From Clostridiales bacterium (lineage in GTDB: Bacteria; Bacillota_A; Clostridia; Oscillospirales; Oscillospiraceae), in the NCBI GenBank assembly GCA_019417795.1, contig DXUR01000081.1, positions 1 through 9,311 on the forward strand: a DNA stretch of 9,311 nt, given 5' to 3'. The stretch's first letter is position 1. Every line of letters begins with the position of its first letter. The position numbers and the translations under genes are program-made. Below, in pieces: positions 6,100 to 9,311 of this stretch. The notes beneath the pieces are model-generated. The model ran no database searches. It was not told the DNA's origin and saw only the letters and a program-made list of their open reading frames with translations.

Positions 6100-6969
6100 T
6101 TAGTGCGCCGCGAAAATTGACTTTGCAAGTGCGCCGGATTTGAACAGGGAAAAGCAGAGGATAACCGTATATGCCGCAAGGGAAAATATCGCGCTGTGTA
6201 AGTTATCCGCTACAACCATGCTGTTTACAAGGACGGCGTAAATGCCGACGCACACCATAATGAGGAAGCCTTGAAAACCGATAGCGAACAGGGATTTTAA
6301 GTAGTTGTTTCCGATCTGCCCCCATTCCCGGTTTGTCATTGTTGCAAATGGGATAGGCGATACAGAACAGTAAAGGTAAATTTCTATCATGCGCCCGTAG
6401 AGGATAACCGTTATCAATACAGACATGATTTTCATGCACAAGCTCACAAGGCTTGTTTCCATAACCAACAATAGAAGTTCGGGGATTTCCATTGCGTCAA
6501 GCCCGGACTGCATGGAAGCAAGGGCAGCGGCAACATCAATGTTTGTGCTGCCGCTTATCACCCCTGCCGCGCCGGAAACGACGTGCTGCGCAACGTCAAA
6601 GACTGCCATAGTAATATCAAAGGTGTGGGTGACAAGGTACACCGCCACCCACGCCTTGAAAAACCACTTGAAAAACATAAATGTGTCAACGTCGTGCATA
6701 TTGTTCTTTTCCGTCACCATGCTGATAAGCTCCACGCATAGGACGTAGGTAATGACAAGCCCCGCAATGGGTACGATCACATTCTCCGATAACGTGCGTA
6801 TCATGTTGAATATGCCCGCGTTCCAGCCCTGCGGGGTCTGCCCTACCTCGGCGGCGATAGTGCCGACTTTCTCGTTTACGTCCCCGAACATAGTTGACAG
6901 GTTCCCGTTAATGGCTCCTATGAGGATTTCCTTTATCCATTCCGTGATCGCGTCAAGTATGCTCTGCAT
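6100..6969 (-). CDS. VirB6/TrbL-like polytopic conjugation channel protein
   Basis: This 289-residue protein has an amphipathic N-terminus (MQSILDAITEWIKEILIGAI) and about five hydrophobic segments at roughly residues 63-86, 103-126, 163-192, 222-250 and 258-277. Before the fourth comes the conserved-looking CSVSPIPFATMTN, a signature I associate with the TrbL/VirB6 family of clostridial elements. VirB6/TrbL proteins form the inner-membrane part of the DNA channel. The start ATG 6967-6969 lies 20 bp after the Maff2 stop. Its RBS is weak (CAGG about 9 nt upstream), unlike the neighbours, so translation may depend on ribosomes arriving from Maff2. The stop TAA overlaps the RBS of the next small ORF. 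Confidence 0.88.
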   Translation of the reverse strand: MQSILDAITEWIKEILIGAINGNLSTMFGDVNEKVGTIAAEVGQTPQGWNAGIFNMIRTLSENVIVPIAGLVITYVLCVELISMVTEKNNMHDVDTFMFFKWFFKAWVAVYLVTHTFDITMAVFDVAQHVVSGAAGVISGSTNIDVAAALASMQSGLDAMEIPELLLLVMETSLVSLCMKIMSVLITVILYGRMIEIYLYCSVSPIPFATMTNREWGQIGNNYLKSLFAIGFQGFLIMVCVGIYAVLVNSMVVADNLHSAIFSLAAYTVILCFSLFKSGALAKSIFAAH

Positions 6970-6989: not shown

Positions 6990-7205
6990 TTAGGAGAACA
7001 GGTTTGCAAGCAGGGGTACAAGGGTCGTGCCGATCAGCGCAACGCCGCCGCCCGCCATGAGCTGCTTCATGCCCTGGCTTTTCGCGCCGGGGTTGTCGTT
7101 GCCGTAACCCTCCATGAGATTGACAACGCCCCAAATGCCAAGACCAGCCCCAAGAGCGATAACCAGTGTTTTCAAAACGCCTACTGCGGAAGTAAAAAAT
7201 GCCAT
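6990..7205 (-). CDS. Maff2 family small membrane protein
   Basis: The 71-residue product starts MAFFTSAVGVLKTL. It has two hydrophobic, Gly/Ala-rich segments at about residues 8-30 and 48-69, joined by a polar linker with GYGNDNPGAKSQGMKQ. This matches the Maff2 family found in Tn1549-type transfer operons. The ATG at 7203-7205 has AAAGGA (7213-7218) at 7-nt spacing. A start 13 codons upstream (7244) would place the RBS within the gene and add a polar leader, so I reject it. Size, two membrane segments and position just before the VirB6-like gene resemble mature VirB2/TrbC pilins. That role is an inference; no signal peptide is seen. Confidence 0.9.
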   Translation of the reverse strand: MAFFTSAVGVLKTLVIALGAGLGIWGVVNLMEGYGNDNPGAKSQGMKQLMAGGGVALIGTTLVPLLANLFS

Positions 7206-7220
7206 GATAAAATCCTTTCT

Positions 7221-7251
7221 GCCGCGTGTGCGGCTGTCCGTCAAGCGGACA
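7221..7251 (-). promoter_or_regulatory. Tandem short hairpins in the Maff2 leader
   Basis: Two abutting inverted repeats lie between the 53-codon ORF stop and the Maff2 RBS. They are GCCGC/GCGGC with a 4-nt loop (7221-7234) and TGTCCG/CGGACA with a 5-nt loop (7235-7251). In the operon transcript they end right at the Maff2 RBS. They could protect a processed 5' end or tune translation. No T-run follows, so they are not intrinsic terminators. Confidence 0.5.
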
Positions 7252-7259
7252 AAAGGCGG

Positions 7260-7421
7260 TCAGCGTTTGGTCGCCGCCGCATAAAAAAACCGCCCTGTAT
7301 GAAAGGCGGTGTCCCCACGCTGCGTAAGTTCTGCGGCGCGGCGGTATTCAGTTGTAAGGGTTTGGGCGGTACGTCCCCCGGTAGGGGCGCGTATCATGTA
7401 GCCCGTGTTTACGTTCTTCAT
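7260..7421 (-). CDS. Small hypothetical protein (53 residues)
   Basis: An ATG at 7419-7421 follows AAGGAG (7432-7437) with 10-nt spacing and opens a frame to TGA at 7260. The product begins MKNVNTGYMIRAPTGGRTAQ, continues through TLTTEYRRAAELTQRG, and ends HTGRFFYAAATKR. No membrane segment or known motif is recognised. The strong RBS, ordinary composition and place between the hairpin region and Maff2 argue for a real gene. The last third of the gene overlaps the terminator-like hairpin, with the T-run coding for Phe-Phe. Function is unknown. A longer overlapping frame at 7348-7584 on the same strand has no RBS and a less protein-like sequence. Confidence 0.65.
   Translation of the reverse strand: MKNVNTGYMIRAPTGGRTAQTLTTEYRRAAELTQRGDTAFHTGRFFYAAATKR
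7282..7310 (-). terminator. Intrinsic terminator-like hairpin, possible attenuator
   Basis: Read on the minus strand, ACCGCC (7305-7310) pairs with GGCGGT (7289-7294) across a 10-nt loop, followed by a run of seven T (7283-7289; the first is also the last stem base). This is the form of a rho-independent terminator facing the direction of transcription, between the VirD4 group and the Maff2 group. It lies within the last codons of the 53-codon ORF, so a translating ribosome would cover it. That arrangement would suit partial termination or attenuation. The stem is only 6 bp, so strength is uncertain. Confidence 0.45.
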
Positions 7422-7491
7422 TTCCGATCAGCTCCTTAAAAAATCTTTTTATGAATGACAGGTAGGAAAGGGTCTGTTTCCGTAGCCGTCG

Positions 7492-7642
7492 GCGGTGTGG
7501 GAATATGGGTAACTGGCTGCTCTTTTGGGATTGTGGGTAACTCTGTTTGCAGGACGTGGGAAAGCCGCACTTTGGCTTTTCCATGTGCTGTGAATGGAGT
7601 TATCCATGATCCCATAGCCTGTTATCCACATTTCCATGCCGC
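7492..7642 (+). repeat. 151-bp imperfect inverted repeat; candidate structured plus-strand RNA or ssDNA hairpin
   Basis: Arms 7492-7566 and 7574-7642 close on a 7-nt loop (7567-7573). Aligned base by base, the plus strand forms an inner stem of 40 pairs (7526-7566 with 7574-7614, one G-G mismatch). A 7x1 internal loop follows (7519-7525 against 7615), then an outer stem of 25 pairs (7492-7518 with 7616-7642, mismatches 7514/7620 and 7505/7629). Thirteen of the 65 pairs are G.T(U) wobbles. The same bases on the minus strand give A.C mismatches, so the fold strongly favours the plus strand. Each arm also holds two copies of a ~16-bp unit GTTAYCCAYRWTYCCA (7498-7513 and 7526-7541 on minus, 7599-7614 and 7621-7636 on plus) plus a weaker third copy near the loop. 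This is the main content of the gene-free stretch 7422-7659. No clear promoter was found on either strand. Confidence 0.8.
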
Positions 7643-7659
7643 AAATCTTTTAAGCCCTG

Positions 7660-7854
7660 TCACTGTTTCGGGACAAGCCCCATGCGGCGGGCTATTTCCT
7701 CCGCGTAAAGCTCCACATAGCGGCGTTCCATTTCTTCCCGCCACGCCCGTATTCCCGCATCAATGGTGTTTGCCATATCCAGCAGCCACTTCATTTCAAG
7801 CTGTTTCCGCTGCTCCCGCTGCTTCTGCTGTTTCTTTCTGATACGCTTATTCAT
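7660..7854 (-). CDS. Small charged, probably coiled-coil hypothetical protein (64 residues)
   Basis: Starting at ATG 7852-7854, behind a perfect AGGAGG (7864-7869) with 9-nt spacing, the product begins MNKRIRKKQQKQREQRKQLE and ends ARRMGLVPKQ. It is extremely rich in Lys, Arg, Gln and Glu, with helix-forming composition throughout and no membrane segment. It could bind nucleic acid or a partner protein, but no family is recognised. The start overlaps the stop of the preceding small ORF by 8 bp. The frame opens further upstream (7995), but only the internal ATG has an RBS. After its TGA comes the long inverted repeat. Confidence 0.78.
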   Translation of the reverse strand: MNKRIRKKQQKQREQRKQLEMKWLLDMANTIDAGIRAWREEMERRYVELYAEEIARRMGLVPKQ

Positions 7855-7880
7855 GGTCTGCGTCCTCCTGTAAATGCGCC
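7847..7880 (-). repeat. Copy 2 of duplicated stop/RBS/start cassette
   Basis: This 34-bp segment matches 8007-8040 at 30 of 34 positions. It holds the TAA of the 55-residue ORF, the ATG of the 64-residue ORF, the AGGAGG site and the codons for LQEDAD. Confidence 0.85.
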
Positions 7881-8014
7881 CGGTTCTTTTCGTAAAGCCG
7901 TTCACAATCCTTGATAAATTTCCGCAGGGCAGCTTGCCGCCGTTGTTCCTCCCGGATTTTCGGGTTGACAAGCACCGTAAACCTCCGCTTATCATTTCCG
8001 GGGCTTTTATTCAC
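7847..8014 (-). CDS. Small basic hypothetical protein (55 residues), GTG start
   Basis: A GTG at 8012-8014 follows a perfect AGGAGG (8024-8029) at 9-nt spacing. It overlaps the virD4 stop by 8 bp. The product begins VNKSPGNDKRRFTVLVNPKI, is helical and charged in the middle (REEQRRQAALRKFIKDCERL), and ends LQEDADHE. Its last residues echo the VirD4 C-terminus LQEDADSE, because both are encoded by the same duplicated cassette. No family is recognised and no membrane segment is seen. A longer frame from 8062 lacks an RBS and would overlap virD4 more. Confidence 0.75.
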   Translation of the reverse strand: MNKSPGNDKRRFTVLVNPKIREEQRRQAALRKFIKDCERLYEKNRAHLQEDADHE

Positions 8015-8040
8015 TGTCTGCGTCCTCCTGTAAATCTGCC
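8007..8040 (-). repeat. Copy 1 of duplicated stop/RBS/start cassette
   Basis: This segment holds the virD4 TAA, the GTG of the 55-residue ORF, the AGGAGG site and the codons for LQEDAD. It is repeated at 7847-7880, 160 bp downstream in the direction of transcription. The copy difference at the start codon is GTG here against ATG there. Confidence 0.85.
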
Positions 8041-9311
8041 CCGTCGATCTCGTAAACGTCAAATTCCTCGTCCGGCTTCACAATGGCGGGGCGGCGTTTG
8101 ATGTGCTTCTCCATGTCAAAAGCGTTTTTCGGGTCAGCGTCGGAGAGGTACTTGTATTTCGGGTGCTTCGTTATGTCGAATTTATCCGAAAAGAACGGGC
8201 GCACCCCACGCACCTGTAAAATACACTTGCCGCCGTCCATAACGGCGATCTCGTCCTGCGTCATAAGCTCCTTTCCCAATTTCTGATAATTCAGCCCGTG
8301 GGAAAGCTCCCGCCCCCGTGTTTCCGACGTGTTGAAGCTGTCTATGGTTTCCTTGCCTAAAATTTCCGACATTTCTTTAAGCGTTGTTTTCTCCTTGCCG
8401 CCCAAGAAAAGGGTTGTGTCGCAATTCCCGGTGATTGTGTCCGCGTTGTCCTTGTAAATGGCTTTTAGCTGGCTCTGTGACTGCAAGATGATTGACGCGG
8501 ATATTTCCCGGCTTCGGATTGTGGCGATCAGCTTCTCGAATTTTGGGATTTGCCCGATATTCGCAAATTCATCAAGTAAGCACCTAACATGGACGGGAAG
8601 CCGCCCACCGTATTCATCATCTGCCTTGTCGCATAAGAGGTTGAATAGCTGGGTATAGAGAATACTCACGACGAAATTAAAGGTGTCGTCGGTGTCGCTG
8701 ATAATGACGAAAAGGGCGGTCTTTCTGTCCCCCAGCGTGTCAAGCTCCATTTCGTCCGTTTCCATAAGCTCCCGCAGCTCCTTAATGTCAAAGGGGGCTA
8801 ACCTCGCGCCGCAGGAAATGAGGATAGAGCTTCGCGTCTTGCCCGCCGATAACAGGAATTTCTTGTACTGCCGGACGGCGAAATGCTCCGGGTCTTTTTC
8901 TTCCAGCCGTTCAAACATGAGGTCAACCGGGCTTTGAAATTCCGGGTCGTCCTCGCGGGCTTCGCTGGCGTTTATCATTTCAAGCAGCGTCGTGAAGTTC
9001 TTTTCTTCCTCCGGGGCTTCATAGTGGATATAGCCGATAAGGGCGCAGTAGAAAAGCCGTTCCGACTTCACCCAAAAATCCTCGCCGGATTTCTCCCCGT
9101 CGCCTTTGGTGTTGGCGATTATGGTATTTACCAACTTCAAAATGTCTTTCTCGCTGCGGATATACGCAAAGGGGTTGTACCGCATGGACTTCTTGAAATT
9201 GATTGTGTTCAGCACTTTTATCCTGTACCCGCCACGCTGTAAGAGCTTCCCGCACTCGATTAAAACCGTGCCTTTCGGGTCTGTGACAACATAGCTGCTG
9301 TGCATTTGCAT
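8007..9311 (-). CDS. virD4: VirD4/TraG-type coupling protein, C-terminal 434 residues (5' end beyond window)
   Basis: VirD4 links the relaxase-bound DNA to the secretion channel and pumps it with ATP. The visible part opens MQMHSSYVVTDPKGT, an internal position in full-length homologues. The membrane anchor and the Walker A loop therefore lie just beyond the right edge, and the ATG at the edge is not the true start. Counting from the edge, DPKG is at 11-14, Walker B CLLDEFANIGQIP has D247-E248, and ILQSQSQL, a conserved TraG/VirD4 stretch, is at 275-282. The C-terminus is acidic and ends LQEDADSE. The TAA overlaps the start of the next small ORF by 8 bp. No frameshift or lost motif is seen in the visible part. 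Confidence 0.95.
   Translation of the reverse strand: MQMHSSYVVTDPKGTVLIECGKLLQRGGYRIKVLNTINFKKSMRYNPFAYIRSEKDILKLVNTIIANTKGDGEKSGEDFWVKSERLFYCALIGYIHYEAPEEEKNFTTLLEMINASEAREDDPEFQSPVDLMFERLEEKDPEHFAVRQYKKFLLSAGKTRSSILISCGARLAPFDIKELRELMETDEMELDTLGDRKTALFVIISDTDDTFNFVVSILYTQLFNLLCDKADDEYGGRLPVHVRCLLDEFANIGQIPKFEKLIATIRSREISASIILQSQSQLKAIYKDNADTITGNCDTTLFLGGKEKTTLKEMSEILGKETIDSFNTSETRGRELSHGLNYQKLGKELMTQDEIAVMDGGKCILQVRGVRPFFSDKFDITKHPKYKYLSDADPKNAFDMEKHIKRRPAIVKPDEEFDVYEIDGADLQEDADSE

Follow-up and report, generated by a model that had tools for sequence, protein, structure and literature searches.

A dispersed long hairpin whose pairing is kept on one strand, common to mobile elements of gut Clostridia

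The hairpin present in the window (the whole 9,311-nucleotide stretch of DNA analyzed here) is one copy of a dispersed element of about 190 nt, composed of a 5' tail and a 60–70 bp hairpin, which is common to several unrelated kinds of mobile elements of gut Clostridia. Its pairing looks kept by natural selection, on the plus strand. Regarding its function, the reading that we favor, with a probability of only about 0.35, is that of a hairpin operating at the RNA level at module borders, where it would stop or process transcripts arriving from the left, perhaps as an oversized transcription stop. The element adds to conjugative elements widespread in gut bacteria a strand-specific structure, kept by compensatory changes, for which no described family was found. 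Since its copies lie at the junction between an element's backbone and its variable cargo, it is relevant to how modules stay independent in such elements.

Architecture and genomic setting of the hairpin

The window covers part of a Tn1549-type transfer region whose genes lie on the minus strand, in the order coupling protein (PF02534), small ORFs, hairpin, small ORF, Maff2, TrbL-like protein and further genes (Table 1). The hairpin sits in the intergenic gap 7421–7660, filling the space between the small ORF on the VirD4 side and the next one. Its stem pairs 7492–7567 with 7573–7642 around a loop at 7568–7572 and contains a one-sided internal loop at 7520–7525, the inner part following the register i+j=15140 and the outer part the register i+j=15134. 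The arm-pair table of the earlier note on this DNA (65 pairs, including 13 G·T, one A·C and two transversions) was reproduced to the base: the remaining 49 pairs are Watson–Crick, the sole A·C pair is 7505/7629 and the two other mismatches are 7553/7587 (G/G) and 7514/7620 (T/T). A general repeat finder returned 15 inverted pairs in the window and none at 7492–7642, probably because the two arms have few exact seeds in common.

Folded as RNA, the segment 7480–7655 reaches −103.8 kcal/mol on the plus strand (z −12.9) and −62.9 kcal/mol on the minus strand (z −5.2), and on neither strand was any of 200 dinucleotide shuffles as good. With DNA parameters, the corresponding values are −46.5 (0/200 shuffles as good) and −27.6 (1/200).

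The stem is preceded by a conserved tail, reaching left to about 7447, which is successively, from 5' to 3', T-rich, A-rich and purine-rich before CCGTAG..GTCGG abuts the stem. The layout common to the copies is an A/T-rich stretch followed by a AGGAATGAGAGGGATT-like motif, a CCGTAGTAGTCGGC-like motif and the stem. The flank profile defining this tail was built on 36 independent copies, window-type copies standing outside that profile. A coding role for the plus-strand ORF 7455–7841 was rejected, since the loop varies in length by 1–2 nt among copies and these indels break the frame among homologues.

Table 1. Features of the window around the hairpin
Feature	Positions	Strand	Basis
TrbL/VirB6-like protein	6100..6969	-	PF19478; bait for collecting related loci
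Maff2 gene, left of the hairpin	6990..7244	-	PF12750
Small transfer-operon ORF separating Maff2 from the hairpin	7260..7421	-	ORF only
Conserved 5' tail of the element	7447..7491	+	Flank profile, 36 independent copies; alignments
Long imperfect hairpin, plus strand giving the stable fold	7492..7642	+	Fold, pair table, homologues
TTATCCACA, DnaA-box-like 9-mer in the outer right arm	7622..7630	+	Motif comparison
AAATCTTTTAAGCC 3' of the right foot, with a short T-run that many other copies also have	7643..7656	+	Sequence, flank comparison
Small ORF, VirD4 side	7660..7995	-	ORF list; no Pfam family
VirD4-type coupling protein, cut off by the window edge	8007..9311	-	PF02534, E 4.5e-51

Pairing is kept on the plus strand

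Homologous copies were compared in an alignment (A1) of 38 non-redundant copies drawn from 62 aligned ones. On the plus strand, 98.8% of its 2166 pair cells form a standard pair, a figure favored by the derivation of the consensus structure from this same alignment, and 15 of the 57 pairs exhibit compensatory changes on both sides. Versions of the structure slid along the alignment gave only 33–51% of cells paired and 2–6 double-change pairs. In a shuffle test of pairing, none of 500 shuffles reached four of the five measures and four reached the fifth. The pair cells comprise 1731 Watson–Crick, 408 G·U, seven A·C and 20 other combinations, and the plus strand is more stable than the minus strand in all 38 rows. 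Collectively, these data strongly support the claim of the earlier note that the plus-strand fold is maintained; an equal rate of A·C in other copies, which it had named as evidence to the contrary, was not seen.

Changes were also placed on a tree, although recombination among mobile elements blurs such trees and the counts are small and approximate. Watson–Crick pairs became G·U 25 times, always by a single change (17 C→T and eight A→G), and A·C five times, once by a double change and four times by a single one (one T→C and three G→A). They became other mismatches 12 times and, by double change, another Watson–Crick pair 25 times. In addition, G→A occurred 16 times where a G·T pair becomes A–T. 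Strand-biased C-to-T change, which had been considered as a rival explanation for the wobbles, thus does not explain the pattern, because A→G makes G·U as well, T→C gave a single A·C, and G→A restores pairs 16 times against the three times it creates A·C.

Among adjacent wobbles, 96 of 97 are tandem 5'-UG/3'-GU and none is 5'-GU/3'-UG, these cells being inherited and not independent. In test helices, this tandem loses 3.0 kcal/mol relative to Watson–Crick pairs with RNA parameters and 4.4 with DNA parameters, while its advantage over tandem A·C is 5.7 and 2.2 kcal/mol, respectively. As far as such model energies can tell, the type of wobble leans toward RNA rather than DNA, short of proof.

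Dispersal among genomes and carriers

The hairpin is not confined to Tn1549-type transfer leaders. It was found in 16 of the 19 genomes searched, at one to 13 places in each, a fraction which is not a prevalence because all 19 genomes hold a related ICE. The 103 BLAST places correspond to 75 distinct copies, from which 12 incomplete matches and one copy with N were excluded before alignment. Six of the incomplete matches are truly cut and most of the others are IME copies with a diverged arm; as a result, most IME copies are missing from the pairing counts. A covariance model matched, at E 1e-6, two of 196 genomes of the class, seven of 196 of the order and 23 of 299 of the family, each count taking in the center genome and that of the family also G230, whose match is a DnaA-box cluster beside dnaA.

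The carriers are ICE leaders, the neighborhoods of relaxase and serine-recombinase genes and chromosomal sites, with a divergent form at an IS transposase. Left flanks vary freely and right flanks sort into classes. One is the transfer leader (Maff2/VirD4 region), and another lies within an element, X, integrated into Maff2, some 100 nt from its right end. In two further classes, the copy adjoins the 3' end of a gene encoding either a 783-aa serine recombinase (PF00239, PF07508) or a relaxase (PF03432). The last class comprises chromosomal sites where the neighbor is a 122-aa ORF, together with a phosphate-binding gene or with regulators. The antisense RNA against the transfer leader suggested in the earlier note is therefore not supported as a general role, because homologous copies occur where no transfer leader exists.

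Several copies deserve individual mention. Three chromosomal ones (L140, L148 and L150) lie 3' of the 122-aa ORF, which has no Pfam match, or of its relative, and their right-hand genes differ. In its divergent form, the hairpin follows an IS transposase gene matching DDE_Tnp_IS240; one genome, G101, contains five nearly identical divergent hairpins (L210, L212, L214, L216 and L218), and in L214, L216 and L218 an IS transposase gene ends 31 nt before the hairpin. At L145, L147, L152, L154, L158 and L163, only the left part of the element is present, followed by other sequence. Among plasmid and phage collections, the hairpin itself was found in one unannotated "phage" record, and two plasmid records match in the Maff2 part alone. 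Two hairpin-containing loci are filed as phage or viral, L121 (MT839717.1) and L090 (IMG/VR), the latter being probably a misfiled ICE fragment because a VirD4-like gene is also present.

A proposed border hairpin acting at the RNA level

According to the reading that we tentatively prefer, the element would act as RNA once a transcript coming from the left runs through it. The giant hairpin, often accompanied by a T-run, would then stop or process this transcript before it enters the right-hand backbone module, and the transfer leader, the relaxase, the serine recombinase or the element end would be shielded by a border insulator. This is consistent with the selection exerted on the plus strand and with the type of wobble, as well as with the position of the copies: right neighbors are Maff2/VirD4, the C-terminal end of the serine recombinase or relaxases, and left flanks are variable. 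The window's own hairpin is immediately to the right of Maff2, the place at which cargo elements are integrated in related ICEs.

The flanks provide further, if mixed, indications. Within the 16 nt past the right foot, 19 of 30 flanks have a T-run of at least four, versus 14% of 1440 control stretches; copies whose flanks are MITE-like, gapped or similar to one another are not part of these statistics. By hand grouping of these 30 flanks, which are not independent, T-runs were found in about eight of 16 classes, often 2–9 nt from the stem. In one copy (L202, G014:C3 near 608,860), a short palindrome stands in place of the whole hairpin body, and the tail, foot, T-run and right flank are kept, a replacement which also argues for a border hairpin. 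However, the T-runs are offset from the stem, are found on the opposite side of the hairpin in eight of 30 flanks and are absent from the divergent relatives L238 and L239. Furthermore, 65 bp of conserved sequence are more than a terminator needs, the slot is empty in several ICEs, and certain chromosomal sites (pst, L150) have a right-hand gene co-directional with the hairpin. No enrichment in sigma-A promoters was found left of the hairpin in 37 flanks, so any transcript must originate outside the element.

A precedent is provided by Tn916, in which an insulating transcription terminator, located at its edge, keeps outside transcription out of the conjugative element (PMC11658703). The present hairpin, for which a comparable role is proposed, differs in having a 60–70 bp stem, a conserved 5' tail and a family spread across unrelated elements, termination being here a proposal.

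A possible independent small RNA gene

It is possible, but rather doubtful, that the element is an independent, mobile gene for an sRNA with a long hairpin that works in trans or is bound by a protein. All the structural evidence (pairing, compensatory changes and tandem wobbles) would suit such a gene, and the conservation of the 5' tail before the stem and of the inner sequence beyond what pairing requires speaks in its favor. Nevertheless, the region upstream of the element exhibits no conserved promoter, the mean best score in −50..−14 being no higher than further upstream in 37 flanks, and a promoter-driven RNA gene was rejected on this ground. Rfam 15 gave no match at gathering score in the window and seven loci; below this score, only miRNA hairpin models were obtained, well under their cut-offs.

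A possible single-stranded DNA hairpin and the DnaA-box-like arms

A hairpin loading replication proteins on single-stranded DNA, whether it serves as a single-strand origin or, by means of a DnaA box in its stem, as an A-site, appears unlikely. Its orientation speaks against it. The Tn1549 nick is given as RYGCTTG|C (PMC7755788). This motif is located upstream of mobC on the antisense strand in three of three ICEs and five of seven IME loci, and on the sense strand in none; it was not found in the IME loci L155 and L160. The mobC gene matched PF05713/PF21983 in the one case tested, and the sequences of L234 and L236 stop short of it. For the window, which is devoid of relaxase, the nick orientation was read from relatives, the hairpin and the relaxase, 18–28 kb apart, being taken as one ICE. 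In ICEs, the plus strand of the hairpin has the sense of mobC, and in IMEs it is antisense to that gene; the stable fold lies on the non-transferred strand in three of three ICEs and on the transferred strand in five of seven IME loci. An origin on the transferred strand is thus contradicted, as in ICEs the stable fold is on the strand staying in the donor, and the single-strand origin during conjugation envisaged in the earlier note finds no support in a fold which flips strand between ICEs and IMEs. The activity of an sso is described as orientation-specific (PMC4595007). The sso1 of ICEBs1, considered here along with plasmid single-strand origins, is likewise a strand-specific structured element in a Gram-positive ICE; in contrast to it, the hairpin is not consistently on the transferred strand, occurs at chromosomal sites too and consists of one long stem, versus three stem-loops for sso1 (PMC4595007).

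In favor of a single-stranded DNA role, the DnaA-box form TTATNCACA is found in the outer right arm of 36 of 38 copies and in both arms of 24. Outside the foot helix, the most frequent non-pair is C/A (3/38), at the N of this box, the next reaching 2/38; the foot pair 28/173 has seven non-pairs. The 9-mer of the window is named after the DnaA-box consensus. In addition, the covariance model has a match downstream of dnaA (PF00308, E 4.6e-74), in a cluster of perfect TTATCCACA boxes (L247, G230:C132) which is probably the chromosomal origin. However, none of nine divergent relatives tested retains a perfect TTATNCACA box and the left-arm box of the window is itself degenerate; the likeness to DnaA boxes is a lead, not a result, because of these nine relatives. 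The precedent is the A-site of the ABC primosome, a hairpin with a DnaA-box-like 9-mer in its stem (PMC6127211). The present hairpin differs from it by the degeneracy of the box in the window's left arm and its absence from the divergent relatives, and its single-stranded DNA role would be putative.

A broader proposal, in which we place still less confidence, is that ICEs, IMEs, serine-recombinase elements, an IS and chromosomes exchange a portable structured element, which serves any carrier without a gene of its own. Its arms would mimic oriC-like arrays of DnaA boxes, altered in such a way that only the folded plus strand keeps its pairing, and might thereby tie the mobile element to the replication or transcription machinery of the host.

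A possible self-spreading hairpin or ordinary inverted repeat

REP elements with RAYT transposases are dispersed palindromes with strand asymmetry and a short motif at their foot. A hairpin spreading by itself, mobilized in single-stranded DNA form by a trans-acting Y1 transposase in the manner of REP/RAYT or IS200/IS605 derivatives, would account for an element which is multicopy, strand-asymmetric and preceded directly by a G(T/C)(A/C)G-like motif, thus sharing dispersal, asymmetry and foot motif with REP elements, and for the IS605-like looking unit at the hairpin foot in some copies. It is nonetheless improbable. The Y1_Tnp match is absent from three of the 12 genomes searched (G001, G008 and G012), which hold six, five and four copies, respectively. 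Among 69 tabulated copies, five share a contig with a Y1 hit, the nearest at 34.6 kb, and 64 are on contigs without one, these being draft contigs. At the slot, pst and response-regulator loci, flanks diverge at the hairpin, and no empty site with a clean target duplication was found. Membership in the REP/RAYT group is not supported, given the lack of Y1 linkage and the presence of copies in the three genomes without a Y1 match, and the stem is far longer than that of REP elements.

MITEs, which are also short, non-coding, dispersed and palindromic, resemble the hairpin in these respects; unlike them, it keeps its pairing on one strand, and neither a target duplication nor a parent transposase was found. 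Least probable of all, and already disfavored, is an ordinary inverted repeat kept by DNA-level events (a protein site or homogenization by template switching) with an inherited wobble bias: template switching can produce compensatory changes in the absence of selection, but such events should act equally on both strands, while the tree gives 25 G·U against five A·C.

The IS605-like looking unit mentioned above is about 300 nt long, has AAATCCAAACTT/AAGTTTGGATTT palindromes at its ends and adjoins the left foot of the hairpin in L110, L120, L125, L133, L135, L138, L162 and L207, and the right foot in L134 and L136.

A literature search, covering titles, abstracts and passages, returned no description of this element. 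It is a new family within two known kinds, the structured element and the dispersed palindrome, and is unusual in its length, conservation and range of carriers.

Occupancy of the slot in related ICEs

Related loci were collected by a scan with the TrbL-like protein, in which the best 80 of 284 genome loci and nine viral-contig loci were retained; the slot was compared in 75 loci and the window, each with at least 750 bases upstream. A window-type hairpin occupies the same slot in 11 loci (L006, L007, L008, L011–L014, L023, L050, L053 and L078), L007 and L008 being identical there, as are L050 and L053. The remaining ICE slots contain an unrelated structured stretch (family B), contain nothing or are displaced by an insertion in Maff2; those without the hairpin include L051, L069, L071, L074, L079, L082 and L083.

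Maff2 is an integration hot spot, elements being inserted at the equivalent of window positions ~7079–7083 in related ICEs (L001–L003, L009, L015, L016 and others). By insertion pattern, type X was recognized in 16 and type Y, inserted nearby, in 14 of the 76 loci, including the window. The ends of element X join to the palindrome CATGAGCA-TT-GCTCATG, which may be the attP of a serine recombinase.

Family B (L027:3315–3495, and the same slot elsewhere) is a structured stretch that replaces the hairpin and is not homologous to it. Its plus strand is the more stable one (−97.6 vs −82.9 on the minus strand), and full-length matches to it were found in six of 18 genomes, with partial matches in four more.
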